Assembly: GCA_016783505.1 (NCBI GenBank)
Contig: JADHWK010000009.1
Coordinates: 1 to 63,201, forward strand
Origin: Candidatus Zhuqueibacterota bacterium
GTDB lineage: Bacteria; BS750m-G25
DNA: 63,201 nt
Direction of reading: 5' to 3'
Shown here: in pieces, positions 42,010 through 53,612 of the stretch
Layout: each line of letters opens with the position of its first letter
How positions within the stretch are numbered: the first letter of the stretch is position 1
Made by a program: the position numbers and the translations under genes
Notes under the pieces: generated by a model
What the model was told of the DNA's origin: nothing
The model's database searches: none
The model's input: the letters and a program-made list of their open reading frames with translations, nothing else

Positions 42010-43350
42010 CTATTTAATTAATATCATTCTCCTCACAGCAAGCACCCTATCGGTTTTCAGGCGATAGAAATAGAACCCACTGGGGGTGCTCTTCCCCTGG
42101 CCATCAGTGCCGTTCCAGCAAACCGTATGCTCACCCGGCGGTTGAACAGACTTTACCAGGGTATCTACCCGCTGGCCGAGCAAGTTGTAGATGGTAAGCT
42201 CCACCTGCACCGCTTGGTCAAGCCCATAACGGATGCTGGTGCTGGAGTTAAAGGGATTGGGATAGTTCTGTGACAGAGAAAATGTGGTGGGAATGGCTTT
42301 CCTGTCATTGTCCACAGCTGCGTAGATGGGTTCTAAAATGGTCATGTCCTGGGCCCCGTCGCCAAAATCTAGGGTAACCAACACCGAATCATTTTGGGGG
42401 TTGAACCTCTGAACGGTATCATCCCCAAAATTGCTTACGTATATTATCCCTTCAGTGCTGTCATAGAGCACCCGCATGGCTCCCTTACCCACCCGAATGG
42501 GGTCGGAACTGCCGTGATATATCGAATCAGTGTAGACGTTATAGCTATAGAGAAAGCCGTCCTCCTCATCGCCCCAGTCGGGAAGATAGCCCTTGCCGTC
42601 AGCGGTTATGGCAATATCCCCGGGCCATCCGCCGATTTCGATGGTATCCATCACCGCTGGCGTCCCGCCCGGACCGGCCCAACGATCAATTACACAAACC
42701 CTCCCTGCATTGGCGCCCCAGGGCCCGGAACAGACTACGTGTATCTTCTCATCGGGCGCCAGGGTCAAATCCTGGGCGTTGGGGGGTAGGGAAAGGGTTT
42801 GTATCACTGAATCGGTAAGGATATCAATGATGGAAACCGAGGAGAATTCGTAATTCGGATACCCACCGGTATTGGTAACAAAGGCGGTGTCTTCCACTAT
42901 TAAAATCCCCTGTGGTGCCAGACCTACTGGAATCTCTTTCACTACTACACCGCTGTCCAGATCAACCACGGACACCGTATTGGCTATCCAATTGGTCACG
43001 TAAACCCTATCGGCCCCCACCAAAGCCATGAACCATGGATTGCTCCCCTCAACCAAAGCAATCCTATTCTCCACTTCCTCGTTTTGCGGATTTATCACCA
43101 TAATCTCCGGCGGCGTGGAATTTACCACATAAACTTTTTCCCCAAAAGCCACCACCTGGCTGGGAACATCCCCTAATATGAAAATGTCGTTGATAATCTC
43201 CCCTGTTTCCAGATCCATCTTAGAGAGGGTTCTCCCCAGCCCGTTTAAGACGTAAAGGGTCCGGGGAAATTCGTCGCCCAGAGCAGCACTCGAAGCGATC
43301 ATGGAAAGAAAAACGATCATTAACGCCGCCTTAAGGTCTGTGCCTTTCAT
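42010..43350 (-). CDS. YncE/BtuG-like beta-propeller with C-terminal sorting domain, B12 locus
   Basis: This 446-residue exported protein has a signal peptide (residues 1-25). A seven-bladed YncE-like propeller spans about 30-350, with repeated blades such as VYVVNSTPPEIMVINP, VYVTNWIANTVSVVDL and IYVSNFGDDTVQRFNP. The last 85 residues are the FCB sorting domain (QNYPNPFNSS, ending RRMILIK). In Bacteroides, BtuG is a surface propeller that binds cobalamin and caps the TonB receptor BtuB. The position of this gene behind two TonB receptors in a cobalamin-riboswitch locus suggests the same job, with secretion through a type IX-like system in place of a lipid anchor. That function is inference. 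A weak terminator separates it from the receptors. Confidence 0.82.
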   Translation of the reverse strand: MKGTDLKAALMIVFLSMIASSAALGDEFPRTLYVLNGLGRTLSKMDLETGEIINDIFILGDVPSQVVAFGEKVYVVNSTPPEIMVINPQNEEVENRIALVEGSNPWFMALVGADRVYVTNWIANTVSVVDLDSGVVVKEIPVGLAPQGILIVEDTAFVTNTGGYPNYEFSSVSIIDILTDSVIQTLSLPPNAQDLTLAPDEKIHVVCSGPWGANAGRVCVIDRWAGPGGTPAVMDTIEIGGWPGDIAITADGKGYLPDWGDEEDGFLYSYNVYTDSIYHGSSDPIRVGKGAMRVLYDSTEGIIYVSNFGDDTVQRFNPQNDSVLVTLDFGDGAQDMTILEPIYAAVDNDRKAIPTTFSLSQNYPNPFNSSTSIRYGLDQAVQVELTIYNLLGQRVDTLVKSVQPPGEHTVCWNGTDGQGKSTPSGFYFYRLKTDRVLAVRRMILIK

Positions 43351-43368
43351 GTTCTCCTCAAATTTTAA

Positions 43369-43396
43369 AAACTAAGTTTCTAAAAGAAACTTAGTT
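43369..43396 (-). terminator. Terminator hairpin at the TonB receptor stop
   Basis: AACTAAGTTTCT (43369-43381) pairs with AGAAACTTAGTT (43385-43396), followed on the minus strand by TTTTAAAATTT. The stem includes the receptor stop codon. Being AT-rich, it may only reduce read-through into the BtuG-like gene, which has its own GAGGAGAAC ribosome site. Confidence 0.7.
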
Positions 43397-45610
43397 TTTC
43401 ACTTTCAGAGTCAAACCAATCCTCCACTCCCGGGGGGGAACCGGGGCACGCTCCACCATCTCGTATTTCACATTCCCGAGGTTGTACACCGAGCCCCTGA
43501 TCTGGATATGAACCCCCATGGCTTTAGTACTTACCCCAACGGTCAAATCGTCAACCCCATATCCCGGCATCTTCACGGTGTTTGCCTCGGTGACATATCG
43601 TTCCCCAATCACCCGCCGCTGGTATTGGAGCTGGAAGATTTTGTATCTTAAATCCACGCCGAGTCGGATATTCTTCCTGGGGCGGTATGGAAGGTCTTTA
43701 TTATGTGTGGTTCGTTCGTTGCTTTTATTTATGGGTTCAAGATAGGTTCGGCTCCAGCGGAGAATGAGAATGTCATTGGGACTGCACCAGCTCAGGTGGT
43801 ATTCTTGACCGGATATTTCAGCATCAGTGTTAAAAGGGGAAAAAGTGGCAAAGGAACCCAGTCGCCAGACGATGAGGTCTTTTACCCTGGTGTAAAAATG
43901 GGAAGCTTCGGTTTGAAGCTCGCCCCAGCCATACCAACTCCCACCCAGGCCGATTTCGTAATCGAGACTCCTTTCTGGTTTCAAGTCCGGCCTGCCAGCA
44001 ACCCGATACTCCTGGTAGAACAAATCGGCGAAGGTAGGGGGCCGAAAGGAACGGCCCCAATTGGCCTTCAGGGAAATCTTGTTCTGTTGACCCCGTGACA
44101 ACAACAGACCGATCTTGGGGCTCCACTGCCGTTCGGAACGAACGGTTCCCTCGTGTTGAATGTGAATCTGATCATAGCGTACTGCCTGGGACAAAAAGCC
44201 CCGGTGAAACCCAACGGGAAAAGGAAACTGTTGTTCACTATGAAGGGTAACCCCATGGGTATAATCCCTTGCTTCTCCAATGGGTCTTTTCCTCAACCCG
44301 ATCAGATTTTCATCGGCATAGTGGGTCCAATCCCCTTCATAGCCAGATCGGAGAATAACCCATCTTTTCAGAAAAACCTGACTGGTTAAACGTATCTGGT
44401 ATTTAGCCAGGCAATTCTTGGAATAATACTGGGGAACGGTCCTATAACGCAGGGGCGCATCTGGAGGATAGATGTGCTTGTATTCTGAGTGTGTGAGGTG
44501 ATAACCCATATGAAGGTCAAACCGAGCCGGTTTCAACTGGGCACGATAATGGCCCCCCAAAATATCCCGTTTGGTCACCGCTCGTGCGTAAGGGGTCAGG
44601 CCAAAGATCAATCCCGGCAGCCCCCGCTTCGTGTAAAATTGATGCCCGTGTAATTCAATCCCATGGTACTCCCATTGATAACCAAACTTGGCGAACAGGC
44701 TGTTTGACTCAAAATCAGCATTGTTTCGATTTTCCTGAATCAACGTTCCATCTGCGCGCTCGTATAAGTAGGGATAATCCCGGGTACTTTTGAGGTGCTC
44801 AAAGGAAACGAAATATCCCAGTTTTTTTAGATTACCGGAAATGGTTGGGCCTCCACCCTCGGCGCCAAATGCCCCGGCTTTCCCCCCTAAGATGATTTCA
44901 GATTTGAAAGACCTCTTAGTGGTGATATTAATGACACCACCGAGGGCACCAGCACCAAATCGGGCTGAGTTTCCACCCTTAATGACCTCAATCTTCTCCA
45001 CCATATTAAGGGGAATAGTGGACAAATCCACCTGTCCAATCATGGCCTCGTTGAGCTTTACACCATCCAGCAAAACCAGCACCTGATCTGGGCGACAGCC
45101 GCGAATGGATATGATCTTTTCGCCACCCCTGTCCTGAATTTCAATTGCCGATAGATGCTGGAGGATCTCCCCCACGTTTTGAGCATTGGTTTGCTCAATA
45201 TCCCGGGCCGTGATCACTTCCACTGAGGCTGCTGTCTCCTCTGGAACCCTATCCACCCGAAGGGTAATGCCTGGGAATTCAATAATCCTTGGAGCGAGGT
45301 AAAAATCAACCCGCAACGGTTGATCCAGACCTATCTTAACCCTGGATTTGGTTTCGTTCTTATAGCCTATATAACTGGCGGTGAGGTTGTATTCGCCCAC
45401 AAACAGATCTTTAATGACATACCGCCCCCGTTCATCAGAACAGACCCCATAGCCAGTGCCTTCCACCATGACATTGGCGCCATAAAGAGGCCTACCCGTA
45501 GATCGGTCCCGAATGACCCCCGTAATTTTCACTACGGACTGGGACCAGACGGTTGAGGAAGTAAGCAAGATAAGAAAATAGATCTTTGACAGATTGATAA
45601 ATTGTCTCAT
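43391..45610 (-). CDS. TonB-dependent receptor with N-terminal carboxypeptidase-regulatory-like domain
   Basis: This 739-residue outer-membrane receptor has a signal peptide (1-22). A beta-sandwich domain (VKITGVIRDRSTGRPLYGAN, about 27-105) typical of Bacteroidota SusC-like and BtuB-like receptors follows, then a plug domain (ISIRGCRPDQVLVLLDGVKL near 165-185; GALGGVINITTKRS near 222) and a 22-strand barrel to the C-terminus. It lies seven bases after another TonB receptor under a cobalamin riboswitch, so it probably takes up a corrinoid. It is larger than its neighbour and not a simple duplicate. Confidence 0.9.
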   Translation of the reverse strand: MRQFINLSKIYFLILLTSSTVWSQSVVKITGVIRDRSTGRPLYGANVMVEGTGYGVCSDERGRYVIKDLFVGEYNLTASYIGYKNETKSRVKIGLDQPLRVDFYLAPRIIEFPGITLRVDRVPEETAASVEVITARDIEQTNAQNVGEILQHLSAIEIQDRGGEKIISIRGCRPDQVLVLLDGVKLNEAMIGQVDLSTIPLNMVEKIEVIKGGNSARFGAGALGGVINITTKRSFKSEIILGGKAGAFGAEGGGPTISGNLKKLGYFVSFEHLKSTRDYPYLYERADGTLIQENRNNADFESNSLFAKFGYQWEYHGIELHGHQFYTKRGLPGLIFGLTPYARAVTKRDILGGHYRAQLKPARFDLHMGYHLTHSEYKHIYPPDAPLRYRTVPQYYSKNCLAKYQIRLTSQVFLKRWVILRSGYEGDWTHYADENLIGLRKRPIGEARDYTHGVTLHSEQQFPFPVGFHRGFLSQAVRYDQIHIQHEGTVRSERQWSPKIGLLLSRGQQNKISLKANWGRSFRPPTFADLFYQEYRVAGRPDLKPERSLDYEIGLGGSWYGWGELQTEASHFYTRVKDLIVWRLGSFATFSPFNTDAEISGQEYHLSWCSPNDILILRWSRTYLEPINKSNERTTHNKDLPYRPRKNIRLGVDLRYKIFQLQYQRRVIGERYVTEANTVKMPGYGVDDLTVGVSTKAMGVHIQIRGSVYNLGNVKYEMVERAPVPPREWRIGLTLKVKN

Positions 45611-45617
45611 CGCTCCT

Positions 45618-47372
45618 TTAATCCCAGAATACCCAGATAATTCCCCATACCTCCTCCCGGTGCATCATGGGATAGCCAGCCACCAGTTCATATTTCTCAC
45701 TCAGTATATTGTTCAGTTCGTAATAGAAAGTCAAATCCTTGATGCGAAAGCGGGCCCGGAAATTAATAACCGCAGCCGGTGACAAAGACACCTTATCCCC
45801 CTCCCAGAATCCCGTTCTTTCTCCGAAAACATGCCCCGAGAACTGAATATTGACGTCCAACCCATCTTTAAAAAAGGTATTCCTGTAGGATAGATAACCG
45901 TAGGCGCTGTTCTGGGGCGTGTAATACATGAAATCCTTCGGGTTTTGATAACAATAAACCGCCCGCCCGGTTAGTTCTTCAACGGGGCGAACGGAAAAGC
46001 CCAGATCAAGGCCAAACAGTTCGGATGTGTTATCATTGGTGGGAATGACGTTCGTGCCTGTAGTGTCATAATAAATACCATGTTCGGTAACCCTTCGGAA
46101 AAGGCTTCCCTCAAGCCAGACCCATCCCCCCTTTTGAAAGCTTCCCCCCAACTGATAGGTGTGGCCAACCCCCGGCCCTAAATCGGGATTACCTGTGAAA
46201 GAAAGACTATCTATCCCGGAAAAAATCGGTCCCAAATGATAGGGTTTATCCCTAACGTCAAAGCTTCCGTAACGTTCTTCTAAGCTGGGAAGGCGCAGCG
46301 ACCGCTGGTAAGCCCCATACAGCGTCATGTTCAGGGACAGGTCATATAAAACCTTCATCCCGCCGGAAAAATTCTGCAAACCGTTACCCTTAGCCGGAAG
46401 GAGTAATCTCAGATTGGGGTTTAGGGTTAGCCGGTCCCCAAAACGGAAAGGCCTTTCCGCCCATATTCCCCCTACTTCATCGGTGTGCTCTCCGTACCCG
46501 GCAGCGTTAAGCTGATGGGATTCGTAATCCATCCCGACTTTAAGGGCTATCCCTTTGAACCCCAGAATATTCCATAGCTGAATCCCCGTTTTTTTCCAAT
46601 TATCCCGATAGGTATTCCAATAATTATTATGCAACCGGCTTTGATAAAGGCAGAAATGAAAGTGATCCCCCTTTTTGATGGAAAAACTCAGATCATCCCG
46701 GTCCAGTTTTTGATGACCCCCTCCGACGGCCAAGTCCCTATGTTTCAGATTGGTAAGGGCTAAAAAGGTCATTTTCCAGTCCTCTCCCCACCGATAGGCG
46801 GATAGTCCCCACAGGTTCTGACTTTTTAGATCAGCCGGCTCTCTCGCTAACAGGGTCAGGCCACCGCCCAGGGCCAAATTCAGACGGGGAGTAATGTTCT
46901 GAATCAGCTCAATATCGGTCCTTGAATAATCATAAAAACCATTCTGGTAAAGAATACGGGTATAGGGTTTAGGGAATTCTTGATCTTTAATTACTACGTT
47001 GATCACCCCACCTGGGGCACTGTAGCCATTAAAGGATTCCCCTTCATAAATTTCAATTCTGGAAATCATTTCCACCGGGATTAAATTCACCTCGAAGTAA
47101 CCGGTCTGGACATCATTCATAGGTTGACCATCCACCAAGAATAGCACCGATTTGGAATCGGCCCCGCGCAGGGTAACGGTGGAGGGTTGACCCACATTGC
47201 CCAGGTTCAACCCGTAGACTCCCGGAAGAACTTGCAGGATATCTCCGAGCTCTTTGTAATGCATATGTGATATTTCTTCCCCATCAATAATACGCACATT
47301 GCCCAAGATTCTGCCAATGGTAATAATTGCTATAATAAATACATACGCCGGTAACTTCAACCTATTCCTCAT
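45618..47372 (-). CDS. TonB-dependent receptor, BtuB-like
   Basis: This 584-residue outer-membrane receptor has a signal-like start. A plug domain (LGDILQVLPGVYGLNLGN near 40; TVTLRGADSKSVLFLVDGQP near 66-85; GYSAPGGVINVVIKDQ near 115) and a barrel ending with a terminal Trp-containing strand (VFWD) follow. The size is like E. coli BtuB (about 590 after processing). It overlaps the ECF S-component gene by 11 bases and is seven bases from the next receptor, so they form one operon behind the cobalamin riboswitch. Uptake of cobalamin or another corrinoid is the likely role. Confidence 0.9.
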   Translation of the reverse strand: MRNRLKLPAYVFIIAIITIGRILGNVRIIDGEEISHMHYKELGDILQVLPGVYGLNLGNVGQPSTVTLRGADSKSVLFLVDGQPMNDVQTGYFEVNLIPVEMISRIEIYEGESFNGYSAPGGVINVVIKDQEFPKPYTRILYQNGFYDYSRTDIELIQNITPRLNLALGGGLTLLAREPADLKSQNLWGLSAYRWGEDWKMTFLALTNLKHRDLAVGGGHQKLDRDDLSFSIKKGDHFHFCLYQSRLHNNYWNTYRDNWKKTGIQLWNILGFKGIALKVGMDYESHQLNAAGYGEHTDEVGGIWAERPFRFGDRLTLNPNLRLLLPAKGNGLQNFSGGMKVLYDLSLNMTLYGAYQRSLRLPSLEERYGSFDVRDKPYHLGPIFSGIDSLSFTGNPDLGPGVGHTYQLGGSFQKGGWVWLEGSLFRRVTEHGIYYDTTGTNVIPTNDNTSELFGLDLGFSVRPVEELTGRAVYCYQNPKDFMYYTPQNSAYGYLSYRNTFFKDGLDVNIQFSGHVFGERTGFWEGDKVSLSPAAVINFRARFRIKDLTFYYELNNILSEKYELVAGYPMMHREEVWGIIWVFWD

Positions 47373-47928
47373 TATCTATGCCATATTCTTTATGAATTAT
47401 CGGGGTTAATTTATTTAGAGCAGCAGGAAGTACGATCAAAAAAATAAGTGTATTGGTAAGGATGTGAATTTGGGCAAAGGCCAGGCCGCCGGCCAGATAA
47501 AGCAGGATCTTTTGAAGGTTAAATCCCACCACCAGAAAGGAACTTCCTAAATTGGTCAGGATCTGGTAAAAAAGGGTGAGGAAAAGTCCAATCCCCGCCC
47601 CCATAATCCTCCCACTCAATCCCCTGGAAATCTTCCCATCGCACCATCCCCCGACATAGCCAACGGCAGCCATCCCCAAGATTTGGGCGGCAAAAAGGGG
47701 TGGATTGGATAGCCCGGAACCCATGGGGTTCAGCCCGGAAAAGATGGATTCAGCCAGCGCTCCGACCATCGCCCCCTTGCTCTTTCCCCCTACTGCTCCG
47801 CTGATAAAGACCGTAGCGGTAACCAGCTCAACGTTAGGCAGGGCCGCCAGTAGAAACCCGACGGCCACCGCTGCCGCCGAAAAGGCCGCGATGTAAGAAA
47901 TGTTCTTTGTTCTCCATCTTGATTTCAC
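47362..47928 (-). CDS. ECF transporter S component, probable cobalamin/corrinoid type
   Basis: This 188-residue membrane protein has five or six hydrophobic helices and the pattern of ECF substrate-binding subunits, including an N-terminal basic lead, then AAFSAAAVAVGFLLAALPNV and GSGLSNPPLFAAQILGM. ECF S-components bind a vitamin and use a shared EcfAAT motor, which is not encoded in this window. As the first gene after a cobalamin riboswitch, the likely substrate is a corrinoid precursor or cobalamin (CbrT-like). The family assignment rests on fold pattern and context, not on a specific motif. Confidence 0.75.
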   Translation of the reverse strand: MKSRWRTKNISYIAAFSAAAVAVGFLLAALPNVELVTATVFISGAVGGKSKGAMVGALAESIFSGLNPMGSGLSNPPLFAAQILGMAAVGYVGGWCDGKISRGLSGRIMGAGIGLFLTLFYQILTNLGSSFLVVGFNLQKILLYLAGGLAFAQIHILTNTLIFLIVLPAALNKLTPIIHKEYGIDNEE

Positions 47929-48130
47929 TTAAAAATAACCTCCACTAACTAGGGCGAAGGTATCCTCACCGAAGCCCAGATACCCCCCTTTTATTCCCCC
48001 CCGAGAATTCGGGGGGGATCTAGGGGGGTCAGTAGTTTAGTCAATAATCGGTAAACAATTAGCAATCAACAATCATCAACCAACAATTCCCCCTTCCTCC
48101 TCTGCCCCTCTGCGTATGTCTTAGGGCAAC
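47929..48130. other. Leader between riboswitch terminator and first B12 gene
   Basis: No gene is seen. It holds a CCCCCCGAGAATTCGGGGGG hairpin (about 47996-48016) with a CTAGGGGGGTC extension, and a partial AATTAGCAATC element (48057-48090). Confidence 0.5.
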
Positions 48131-48166
48131 AAAAAATCCCCCCTCCTAATCAGGAAGGGGGATTTC
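48131..48166 (-). terminator. Riboswitch-associated intrinsic terminator
   Basis: On the minus strand AATCCCCCTTCCT pairs with AGGAGGGGGGATT and is followed by six T residues (48131-48136). It lies about 55 bases after the aptamer, so it is the likely expression platform: B12 binding would favour termination before the transport genes. Confidence 0.85.
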
Positions 48167-48221
48167 ATCTTCCGCATTACAATTTCAGATTTCCTTCCCT
48201 CGAAGGATGTGATCAGAATTA

Positions 48222-48388
48222 CTAGGCAGGTCTCCTGACTTACGGACTTTAAACCCGACCCGCCTTCCCATCCCGACTTAAAGTCGGGGCAGTGGCTACT
48301 AGGCCGGATATTTCCCGATCACAGTTGCGGGGCAGTTCCCGATTCTCACGGGATTCCCTTTTAATCCCCTACGGGGAACCTATACCTT
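48222..48388 (-). promoter_or_regulatory. Cobalamin riboswitch
   Basis: The minus strand holds the aptamer hallmarks in order: AGGTTCCCC near 48380, GGGAATCCCGTGA near 48357-48342, GGGAACTGCCCCGCAACTGT near 48341-48320, GCCACTGCCCCGAC near 48296, GGGAAGGCGGG near 48270, and the closing GTCAGGAGACCTGCC (48239-48225). This is a class with full peripheral arms, as expected for adenosylcobalamin. It controls the ECF S-component, two TonB receptors and probably the BtuG-like gene. Confidence 0.95.
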
Positions 48389-48395
48389 CAGATTA

Positions 48396-48424
48396 AATAT
48401 ACAGATATTTCTTTATTTTGTCAA
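48396..48424 (-). promoter_or_regulatory. Sigma70 promoter of the cobalamin riboswitch transcript
   Basis: On the minus strand TTGACA (48419-48424) and TATATT (48396-48401) are 17 bases apart. The -35 box overlaps the rplS stop codon. Confidence 0.8.
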
Positions 48425-51439: not shown

Positions 51440-52367
51440 TTATTCAATTTTTCCTTCTGCTAAAATAATTGTTCCATTTTTGCCAGAATACATTCTTTTG
51501 TTATCGGAATTAAATTCATATTTTACATCCAAAGATAATGACTCTATTGACAATATCTTATAATGTTTACATTTATAGATATGTTTACCTCGTTGCTCTC
51601 CAGCAACATAAATCTCAAACGATAATATGAAATGAGGTGCGTCATAGATTACTTTAAATTCATCAGAAGGTGAGAAATAAAAACTTCTTTGTGTTGTTTC
51701 TATATTTTCAATGTTATATGTTTTGCATTCTAAATAATACGGTTTCTTATTAAACCAGAAAAATATATCGGGATATCCTGTAGATTTTTTGCGTCCTTTT
51801 GGTCCTGTCGGGACATCGGCATTTAAGCCTAATGAATTTAAAGCGGACTTAGCATAAGGTTCTATATCATTTCCCACTTCATTTGGTCTTGGTCTTAAAA
51901 TTCCCAACATCATACGCCTTTTTACCTCCAAGTTGTGCAGCTTTGCTAAGTTGCCCTAACAATTTCTTTTTTTGCTCAACTGATGACTCAAAAGTAAAAA
52001 CTTTAAAACCTGTGAGTGCCTTTTCACTAATTGGAACTTTTACAACAATGACAGAAACCCCAAATTGGCAACCATCAACTATCTCATTTCTTAATACTTC
52101 AAAATCCCCGTATTTATTCACAAACTCGACTTCAAATACTTCATCATGCTTATTTCCAATCATTTCATAGATATATTCATCATCATCCCAGTCTCCGTTC
52201 TCTTTTATCATCTGCTCAGCTATACATTCTGCTTCCCAACCTTCTATAAGATAAACATACCTGTAAAATGGAGTCCTGACCTCACCTCGTGCAAACTTAG
52301 TTTCATCAAGTAATTTATTTATATGGTTTAATATACCCTCCTCATTGTAACATTGACACATAGTCAC
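51440..52367 (-). pseudogene. Restriction-endonuclease-like gene broken by a frameshift
   Basis: Two overlapping frames, 52367-51879 (162 residues) and 51931-51440, are best read as one gene of about 305 residues. The first part ends GGKKAYDVG then drifts into NFKTKTK and stops. The second frame continues GILRPRPNEVGNDIEP. Removing one A from the GGGAATTTT run near 51900 joins them as AYDVGILRPRPNE. The C-terminal part has a PD-(D/E)XK core: GYPDIFFWFNKKPYYLECKT (Pro-Asp, then Glu-x-Lys). The first half shows no known domain. With the methyltransferase upstream it may be the cleaving subunit of a restriction-modification system, now inactive unless the shift is an error or is programmed. Confidence 0.72.
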
Positions 52368-52370
52368 ATC

Positions 52371-53612
52371 TCATCCTTGGAAATACAATAACTTCAGCAA
52401 TGATCTAAATCTTGCTGCAGCTTGGCTTGGGAAATAGCGTAATGAATATTTTGAATCTTTTACCTCAACAATGTTGATTATGTTTGAAGATAGAAACTTT
52501 AAGATTTCTTCAATTTCTTTTTTAGATATAAATGGCCTTTTCATCAATTCACATTTTGCATCAAGACCTCCCCTAATTACGTCAATATTTTTAGATTTAA
52601 AATCTAAATTCTCAACAATAAATAACACGTTATCCAAAAAAAGTTTAATCTCTTGGATTTTTTCTTCCAAAGGTTTCAAATCTTCATCGCTAATTAATCC
52701 TTTTTTAGAAAAAATTGCTACATATTCATGAGGAGATAATGGTAAATTTCTATGTATTTCCAGAAGTCTCAGAAGAGTTTTGACGTTTACAAGACTTGAT
52801 TCCTCAAGTTCGGCATCCCTTATCACCGCAGGATCAAAACCAACACTAACTACTAAAATGAAATCTGCATCATGTGATTTTTTATGTTGCTTAAGCCTTG
52901 TAAAATTGATACGAGATATTGAGCTTGACTTTGTACTTTTCCCATCCACAATAAAACTCACAGGTTTTTCCACCAAGACATCAGTGTCTCCGGGACCTCC
53001 AATCTTCCGAGCTTTAAAACCTATTTCATTAAAAAATTCACATAATGCGTTCTCAAAATTATCAGGATTTTCGCTGTCTCTCAGGGAAGTTTTTAATCTA
53101 TCCTCGAGCGTTAAAATACCTTTAACTTTTCCTTTCTCCTCAACTGTCTCCTTTGGCTTTTTTACCGGGATAAAATCTTTAACTTTGGGGATATATCCCT
53201 TCCTGAACTCCATAGGTGTGAAATCGTAATAATTTAAGTAATCTGTAACATCAAATTTCCCTTTTCCGCTCACTCGTAAATAAAATTTATTATTCTCTAC
53301 GAATATATTGAGTTTCCATTGTCCTGAGGCAACTTTGGAATCTACAATAAGTTTCTCCAAATCGTTGGAAGGCATGACAATAACATTATTCTCATCAGCA
53401 CATATAAAAAGGATGAAAAAGTTGTTTGAGGCGTATTTCTTGAAATCAGTTTCTGTTATCCCAAAGTAGTATTTCCCATTGTGATCCTTAGAATAGCGTA
53501 AATAGATCACAGCCCTTGAATTTAATTGAAACACGCTTTCACCTGCAATGACTTCAATATTATGTCGCTTTTCTAAAAGCTGTAAGATTGCCCTTTTTAA
53601 TTGTTTTGCCAT
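52371..53612 (-). CDS. Predicted PD-(D/E)XK nuclease of the restriction-modification island
   Basis: This 413-residue protein has an N-terminal region (1-150) without a recognised domain and a central nuclease-like core. GGPGDTDVLVEKPVSFIVDG with the following Lys gives Asp, Asp and Asp-x-Lys in the spacing expected for an Mrr/restriction endonuclease fold (near residues 204-226). A helical linker follows, then a C-terminal winged-helix-like part. It overlaps the methyltransferase by 16 bases with GAGGAAGATAGC before the ATG, so the two are made together. Its role may be cleavage or target recognition in the same system. It is AT-rich like its neighbours and unlike the housekeeping genes around. 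Confidence 0.65.
   Translation of the reverse strand: MAKQLKRAILQLLEKRHNIEVIAGESVFQLNSRAVIYLRYSKDHNGKYYFGITETDFKKYASNNFFILFICADENNVIVMPSNDLEKLIVDSKVASGQWKLNIFVENNKFYLRVSGKGKFDVTDYLNYYDFTPMEFRKGYIPKVKDFIPVKKPKETVEEKGKVKGILTLEDRLKTSLRDSENPDNFENALCEFFNEIGFKARKIGGPGDTDVLVEKPVSFIVDGKSTKSSSISRINFTRLKQHKKSHDADFILVVSVGFDPAVIRDAELEESSLVNVKTLLRLLEIHRNLPLSPHEYVAIFSKKGLISDEDLKPLEEKIQEIKLFLDNVLFIVENLDFKSKNIDVIRGGLDAKCELMKRPFISKKEIEEILKFLSSNIINIVEVKDSKYSLRYFPSQAAARFRSLLKLLYFQG

Follow-up and report, generated by a model that had tools for sequence, protein, structure and literature searches.

Introduction

The closest described counterparts of the system treated here are BtuG1, BtuG2 and BtuG3 of Bacteroides thetaiotaomicron (PDB 8blw, 8bmx and 8p97; PMC6143338, PMC10404256), acidic seven-bladed propellers whose genes lie next to that of a BtuB-type receptor in loci with a cobalamin riboswitch. 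In BtuG2, a negatively charged face binds cationic corrinoids, and the N-terminal linker is the hinge on BtuB (PMC10404256). A stretch of 63,201 nucleotides from contig JADHWK010000009.1 of a Candidatus Zhuqueibacterota bacterium, called the window in the following, carries on its minus strand a cobalamin riboswitch followed by genes for a putative energy-coupling factor (ECF) S component, two TonB-dependent receptors and a BtuG-like propeller. This is very probably a vitamin B12 uptake operon with a BtuG-type propeller that is exported by the type IX secretion system (T9SS) and not lipidated.

BtuG has been reported from Bacteroidetes only, after BlastP searches at 1e-10 in 313 human gut genomes by Wexler et al., and this exclusive occurrence was explained via gut competition (PMC6143338). 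The published description comprises lipoproteins of the Bacteroidetes. Judged from its sequence, the protein of the window is a lipid-free BtuG variant outside this description.

The propeller protein and its kinship to BtuG

The propeller protein of 446 amino acids (43350-42010; all coordinates refer to the whole stretch and all parts of the operon lie on the minus strand) contains YVTN/YncE-type repeats and a C-terminal tail. It is made up of a signal peptide (residues ~1-25), the propeller (26-343), a linker (~344-366) and a type A T9SS sorting domain (363-443). The AlphaFold2 (AF2) model of 42010-43350, computed from seven aligned proteins of the window and the loci, is a seven-bladed propeller with a predicted local distance difference test (pLDDT) score mostly above 90, followed by the disordered linker (~344-366) and a beta-sandwich tail. 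When it was compared with the PDB by Foldseek, the 16 BtuG chains filled ranks 2 to 17 with E-values between 1e-15 and 1e-12, and the first match after this block was Lp49 with 1.6e-11. The propeller that had been read from the DNA alone is borne out by this model.

Whole-protein searches were filled with matches to the sorting tail and therefore, a propeller-only profile (A1) was built from seven rows, namely the window protein and six relatives. It matched all BtuG1, BtuG2 and BtuG3 structures and retrieved a protein of genome G345 (locus L165) at 2e-41, which in turn matched BtuG3 (4.7e-42) and BtuG2 (2.2e-41) over its whole length. The L165 protein is a lipoprotein, and a cobalamin riboswitch precedes its gene by 2.4 kb. 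The identity between the window propeller and BtuG is about 16-22%. Sequence comparison strongly supports that the window propeller is related to BtuG. As with BtuG, its gene shares a cobalamin-riboswitch locus with a btuB-type receptor gene. Unlike the Bacteroides proteins, which are surface lipoproteins with a lipobox and a lipoprotein export signal, it has no lipobox cysteine and carries a type A T9SS tail instead. Due to the missing lipobox, it is named BtuG-like and not BtuG. The genome that encodes it was the only one returned by a search for its phylum.

Conservation of the locus across bacteria

Profile A1 was searched against 386 genomes spread over the bacterial domain, and the riboswitch model RF00174 was then run on the genomes with strong matches. 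Forty-nine of 61 propeller homologues (E ≤ 1e-20) had an RF00174 riboswitch on their own strand, 0.1-6 kb upstream of them. As some of the seven profile seeds had been picked after riboswitch linkage was already seen, it is noted that 42 of 54 homologues remain linked without these seeds. The linked homologues span 44 genomes and 35 family-level groups, while chance proximity to a riboswitch is roughly estimated at ~0.0015 per gene. Among the 12 unlinked homologues, seven belong to genomes with no detected riboswitch and five to genomes with a riboswitch elsewhere. The sequence-only reading had tied such propellers to B12 genes, and the opposite case of homologues occurring mostly away from these genes is contradicted by the counts. 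This spread beyond the Bacteroidetes lies outside the scope of the gut-genome test of Wexler et al. (PMC6143338).

A receptor gene stood beside the propeller gene in 36 of the 45 loci tested. A single-protein scan of genome contigs yielded five loci, and the named contigs include Zixibacteria, Gemmatimonadota and Calditrichota metagenome-assembled genomes (MAGs). The gene order of the window was found again next to cobalamin riboswitches in related genomes, as had been anticipated. In L154, the whole block is repeated with trmD, rplS, riboswitch, S component, receptor 2, receptor 1, propeller with sorting tail, trpS and scpA. Variants occur in L169 (rimM, trmD, rplS, riboswitch, S component, two receptors and propeller) and in the Zixibacteria locus L085 (S component, receptor, two propellers, another receptor, trpS, scpA and scpB). 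The block shared by these three loci indicates that the two-receptor operon is old.

The linkage also bears on the idea that the operon is dedicated to a substrate other than B12, such as a metal or a different cofactor, and is under riboswitch control because this substrate is used in a B12-dependent pathway, with the propeller being a generic YVTN surface protein. Cobalamin riboswitches control non-transport genes as well, the propeller fold is common and the assignment of the receptors to a family is weak. Still, riboswitch linkage in 35 family-level groups, a B12 receptor as the best named family and mostly also as the best structures of the receptors, and the sequence bridge from L165 to true BtuG make this explanation very improbable.

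Two further features were observed in these B12 loci. Second propeller paralogues are present within the same operons (L085:6914-8242 and L084:2898-4286), and in L071:4428-5269 (genome G008) the propeller is followed by a protein matching DUF4430 with 63.7 bits and a membrane protein matching DUF6580 with 130.6 bits.

Sorting domain and type IX secretion

The tail of the window protein scored 35.1 bits with TIGR04183 (cut-off 23), the sorting domain of T9SS type A cargo. It also scored 41.6 bits with FlgD_ig (cut-off 27), and with 25 bits it was just below the cut-off of 27 for Por_Secre_tail. The source genome encodes a SprA of 2069 amino acids (672 bits) and, side by side in one contig, a PorU-type sortase (776 bits) and a PorV-type protein (282 bits), so that translocon and sortase components are all present over their cut-offs, along with 68 sorting tails. 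With type A cargo, the window protein shares the signal peptide and the C-terminal beta-sandwich sorting domain, next to the PorU, PorV and SprA genes in its genome; no vitamin-capture lid is among the cargo proteins found in the literature searched. The T9SS genes are observed directly and support a presumed type IX export of the window propeller.

The C-terminal domain could alternatively be an ordinary FlgD-like immunoglobulin domain with no working T9SS signal in this phylum, which would leave the protein in the periplasm. This would agree with the higher score of FlgD_ig compared to Por_Secre_tail and with the PorM/GldM motor, which was not found in the source genome (~60% complete) by a search that matched in no control either. 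The explanation is nevertheless highly unlikely given the TIGR04183 score above the cut-off, the 68 tails of this kind in the genome, and SprA, PorU and PorV over their cut-offs. Moreover, homologues from several SprA-less genomes carry a lipobox in place of the tail.

Across genomes, a sorting tail occurred in 13 of 40 SprA-positive and in none of eight SprA-negative genomes (one-sided p 0.06); this link between tail and SprA is only suggestive. A Fisher value for lipobox against tail was set aside as partly circular, since possession of a lipobox had served to define the lipoprotein group. A T9SS is absent from the genus Bacteroides (PMC11285876), and the SprA search was negative in the Bacteroides control, which fits the lipid anchors of Bacteroides BtuG. 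Export of the window protein by its T9SS was part of the sequence-only reading, which saw a BtuG equivalent displayed by a type IX-like route. Operon conservation, the links in sequence and fold to BtuG and the SprA, PorU and PorV genes all favour this inference.

Exchange of the surface anchor and the A2 domain

The anchors were compared among the 45 propellers in the tree. Sixteen have a sorting tail (13 recognised by a tail profile built here and three by eye), 24 have a lipobox without tail and five have dockerin-like EF-hand repeats that are below the Pfam cut-off. The tree requires at least nine changes among these three anchor states, although the exact number is soft due to the weak placement of several long branches. 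Strongly supported branches alone force four changes for the tail. With 100/100 support, L162 (tail) and L075 (dockerin-like) form a sister pair and L069 (dockerin-like) lies within the tail clade. The exchange is also visible within the operon, as its last gene encodes a sorting tail in the window and in L154 but a lipobox (FLGC) at the same place in L169. Three anchor types and at least nine changes in the tree argue for a modular anchor. These sequences show that propeller and operon are kept across lineages while the surface anchor is swapped.

A domain of ~185 amino acids, here called A2, was additionally found in cobalamin-riboswitch loci and is undescribed so far. It has the consensus DPWADxVVSF..NVLGPPDP..FDLDAVVAV with 51-62% identity and is contained in the genes L084:1732-2715, L085:4864-6777, L086:4618-6513, L069:5434-7308, L070:5525-7444, L081:4065-4715 and L082:5480-6700. 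A2 is either fused to a propeller, namely in L069, L070, L085 and L086, or occurs by itself, then bearing a sorting tail or a lipobox; the window copy of the propeller has no A2. A2 had no match in Pfam and no sequence match in the PDB, and its sequence revealed no relation to BtuH or DUF4465. Its AF2 model was poor (pLDDT 46) and was not used. A2 is a candidate for a new B12-binding domain, as judged from sequence. The fusion of a second domain to the propeller in relatives of the window protein resembles BtuG1 with its fused BtuH domain, besides the DUF4465 proteins BtuJ1 and BtuJ2 (PMC10404256, PMC13398666).

Receptors and S component

Receptor 1 (45610-43391, 739 amino acids) is BtuB-like and consists of CarboxypepD_reg, Plug and barrel domains, while the shorter receptor 2 (47372-45618, 584 amino acids) has Plug and barrel domains. 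The best named family for both is the B12 receptor TIGR01779, and their best structural matches are mostly B12 receptors. Orthologues of receptor 1 directly precede the propeller gene in L084, L069, L070, L085, L086 and L139; the identity is 66% to L084 and 42% to L085 and L087.

The likeness between the two receptors is confined to plug and barrel. Direct comparison of the N-termini revealed that the plug of receptor 2 starts approximately at the end of the signal peptide, level with residue 22 of BtuB, and that the TonB-box stretch is missing. The counterpart in L154 has no TonB-box segment either. In the L169 counterpart, the plug itself looks degenerate. It had been suggested that each receptor may serve a corrinoid of its own; no support for this was found, and the mature N-terminus of receptor 2 leaves no space for a TonB box. 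Receptor 2 is a companion whose place in the operon is conserved.

The pairing of receptor and propeller matters for another explanation, in which a T9SS-displayed B12 binder, without capping the receptor, would trap the vitamin freely at the surface or be released, like the B12 binders BtuJ1 and BtuJ2, which are vesicle-borne. The tether of the window protein is C-terminal and flexible, as opposed to the hinge-like N-terminal linker of BtuG2 (PMC10404256), and no receptor was detected beside the propeller in nine of 45 loci, some of which are truncated, either at a contig end or at the limits of the fetched stretch. However, the propeller gene usually follows directly after a BtuB-like receptor and the pair is kept in the close clade of the window, L084, L085, L086, L069, L070 and L139. 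A free trap is therefore rather unlikely compared to a receptor-associated lid.

The S component (47928-47362, GTG start, 188 amino acids) gave a weak Pfam match of 17 bits to DUF6580. Its tentative assignment as ECF-type comes from the PF12822 matches of syntenic orthologues. Orthologues are encoded in the same operon in L085, L154 and L169, and the L169 copy reached 31.9 bits with PF12822 (ECF_trnsprt, cut-off 30.7). CbrT of the ECF B12 transporter (PMC5997447) is likewise an S-component-like membrane protein under a B12 riboswitch, whereas no direct match to a B12 S component was found for the window protein.

Putative corrinoid binding

The window propeller has a net charge of -31, and all 45 family members compared are acidic. 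In a low-identity alignment, Trp211 and Trp242 stand in the window protein where BtuG2 has the contacts Tyr239 and Trp272. The position of Trp211 is aromatic in nearly all homologues and that of Trp242 is unconserved. Contact residues and acidity lend weak support to a putative corrinoid binding. By analogy with BtuG, the window propeller would bind B12 and cap its receptor. A need for the vitamin is indicated by eight B12-binding domains over cut-off encoded in the source genome.

Control region and operon layout

The cobalamin riboswitch aptamer RF00174 (48398-48208) is full-length (model positions 1-189) and scored above the gathering threshold with 119.9 bits and an E-value of 1.6e-29. It is preceded by a sigma-70-type promoter-like site TTGACA-17-TATATT (48424-48396) that overlaps the end of rplS and agrees with the consensus at 11 of 12 positions. 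Eight sigma70-like sites were found in the region compared to 10.1 expected; as such sites are not above chance as a class, this promoter is plausible but not proven. An intrinsic terminator follows at 48162-48132, with a 10-bp G+C-rich hairpin (48162-48138; scored as nine pairs by the terminator scan), then TTTTTT, and -18.5 kcal/mol. Antiterminator pairing between aptamer and terminator was sought by eye and by folding, but no convincing alternative structure was obtained.

The S-component gene overlaps the receptor 2 gene by 11 bases, and the gaps are 7 bases between the receptor genes and 40 bases between receptor 1 and the propeller, so the four genes are read as a single operon. All parts originally noticed, from promoter, full aptamer and T-tailed terminator to S component, two receptors and propeller with signal peptide and sorting domain, were confirmed in their places. 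The operon is bracketed by rplS (48810-48421) upstream and trpS (41373-40387) downstream, with a nucleotidyltransferase gene (41863-41426) between propeller and trpS.

Between terminator and first gene, a G/C-run inverted repeat (CCCCCTAGATCCCCCCC...GGGGGGGAATAAAAGGGGGG) lies at 47985-48030 as a single copy in the window. A hairpin at 47938-47961 (-13.4 kcal/mol, z -1.8) encloses GGAGGT, the likely ribosome-binding site of the S-component gene, and could impart an extra translational control. Further away, at 51440-53612 on the minus strand, three open reading frames (163, 162 and 413 amino acids) near ribosomal genes are possibly a mobile or restriction-like insertion.

Proposed mode of action

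When cobalamin is scarce, the riboswitch would permit transcriptional read-through. The signal peptide would carry the propeller across the inner membrane, and its C-terminal domain would steer it through the SprA translocon before being removed by PorU. The propeller may then stay tethered to the surface via the flexible C-terminal linker. Following the model of BtuG, the strongly acidic propeller would catch the cationic corrinoid and pass it to the adjacently encoded BtuB-like receptor, and the ECF S component would presumably move it over the inner membrane.

Besides the undetected motor protein, several findings weigh against this assignment. The top structure in both the Foldseek and the VIA-align lists was a generic archaeal YVTN S-layer protein. 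VIA-align Z-scores for BtuG (34-36) were tied with those of other seven-bladed propellers, for example 6-phosphogluconolactonase (35); fold alone is thus no proof of BtuG identity, and the Z-scores were not used as an argument for kinship. The receptors stay far below the TIGR01779 cut-off for BtuB equivalogs (599.7) with 176.7 bits for receptor 1 and 77.2 bits for receptor 2. The BtuG2 contacts Trp194, Tyr316 and Tyr335 have no clear counterpart in the window protein in the low-identity alignment. Finally, the C-terminal tether of the window lid would have to work differently from the N-terminal hinge of BtuG2.

In a wider view, which is probable with some reserve, B12 lids on TonB receptors are widespread and not a lipoprotein invention of the Bacteroidetes. 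One propeller would be displayed by lipid, type IX or dockerin-like anchors, often together with A2, and the window protein would be a C-terminally tethered type IX lid.

Biological meaning

BtuG-like propellers are linked to riboswitches in 35 or more family-level groups, several of which are represented by named MAGs outside the Bacteroidota. This suggests that B12 lids are far wider spread than stated in the literature. If this is true, surface B12 capture would be a broad environmental strategy and the account of a gut origin would need revision. The anchor, lipid or type IX, would then be an exchangeable module, and the question is raised how a C-terminally tethered lid opens and closes compared to the N-terminally tethered BtuG2. 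Beyond the single lid of the window, the result of greater interest is that a widespread B12 propeller carries a modular anchor.

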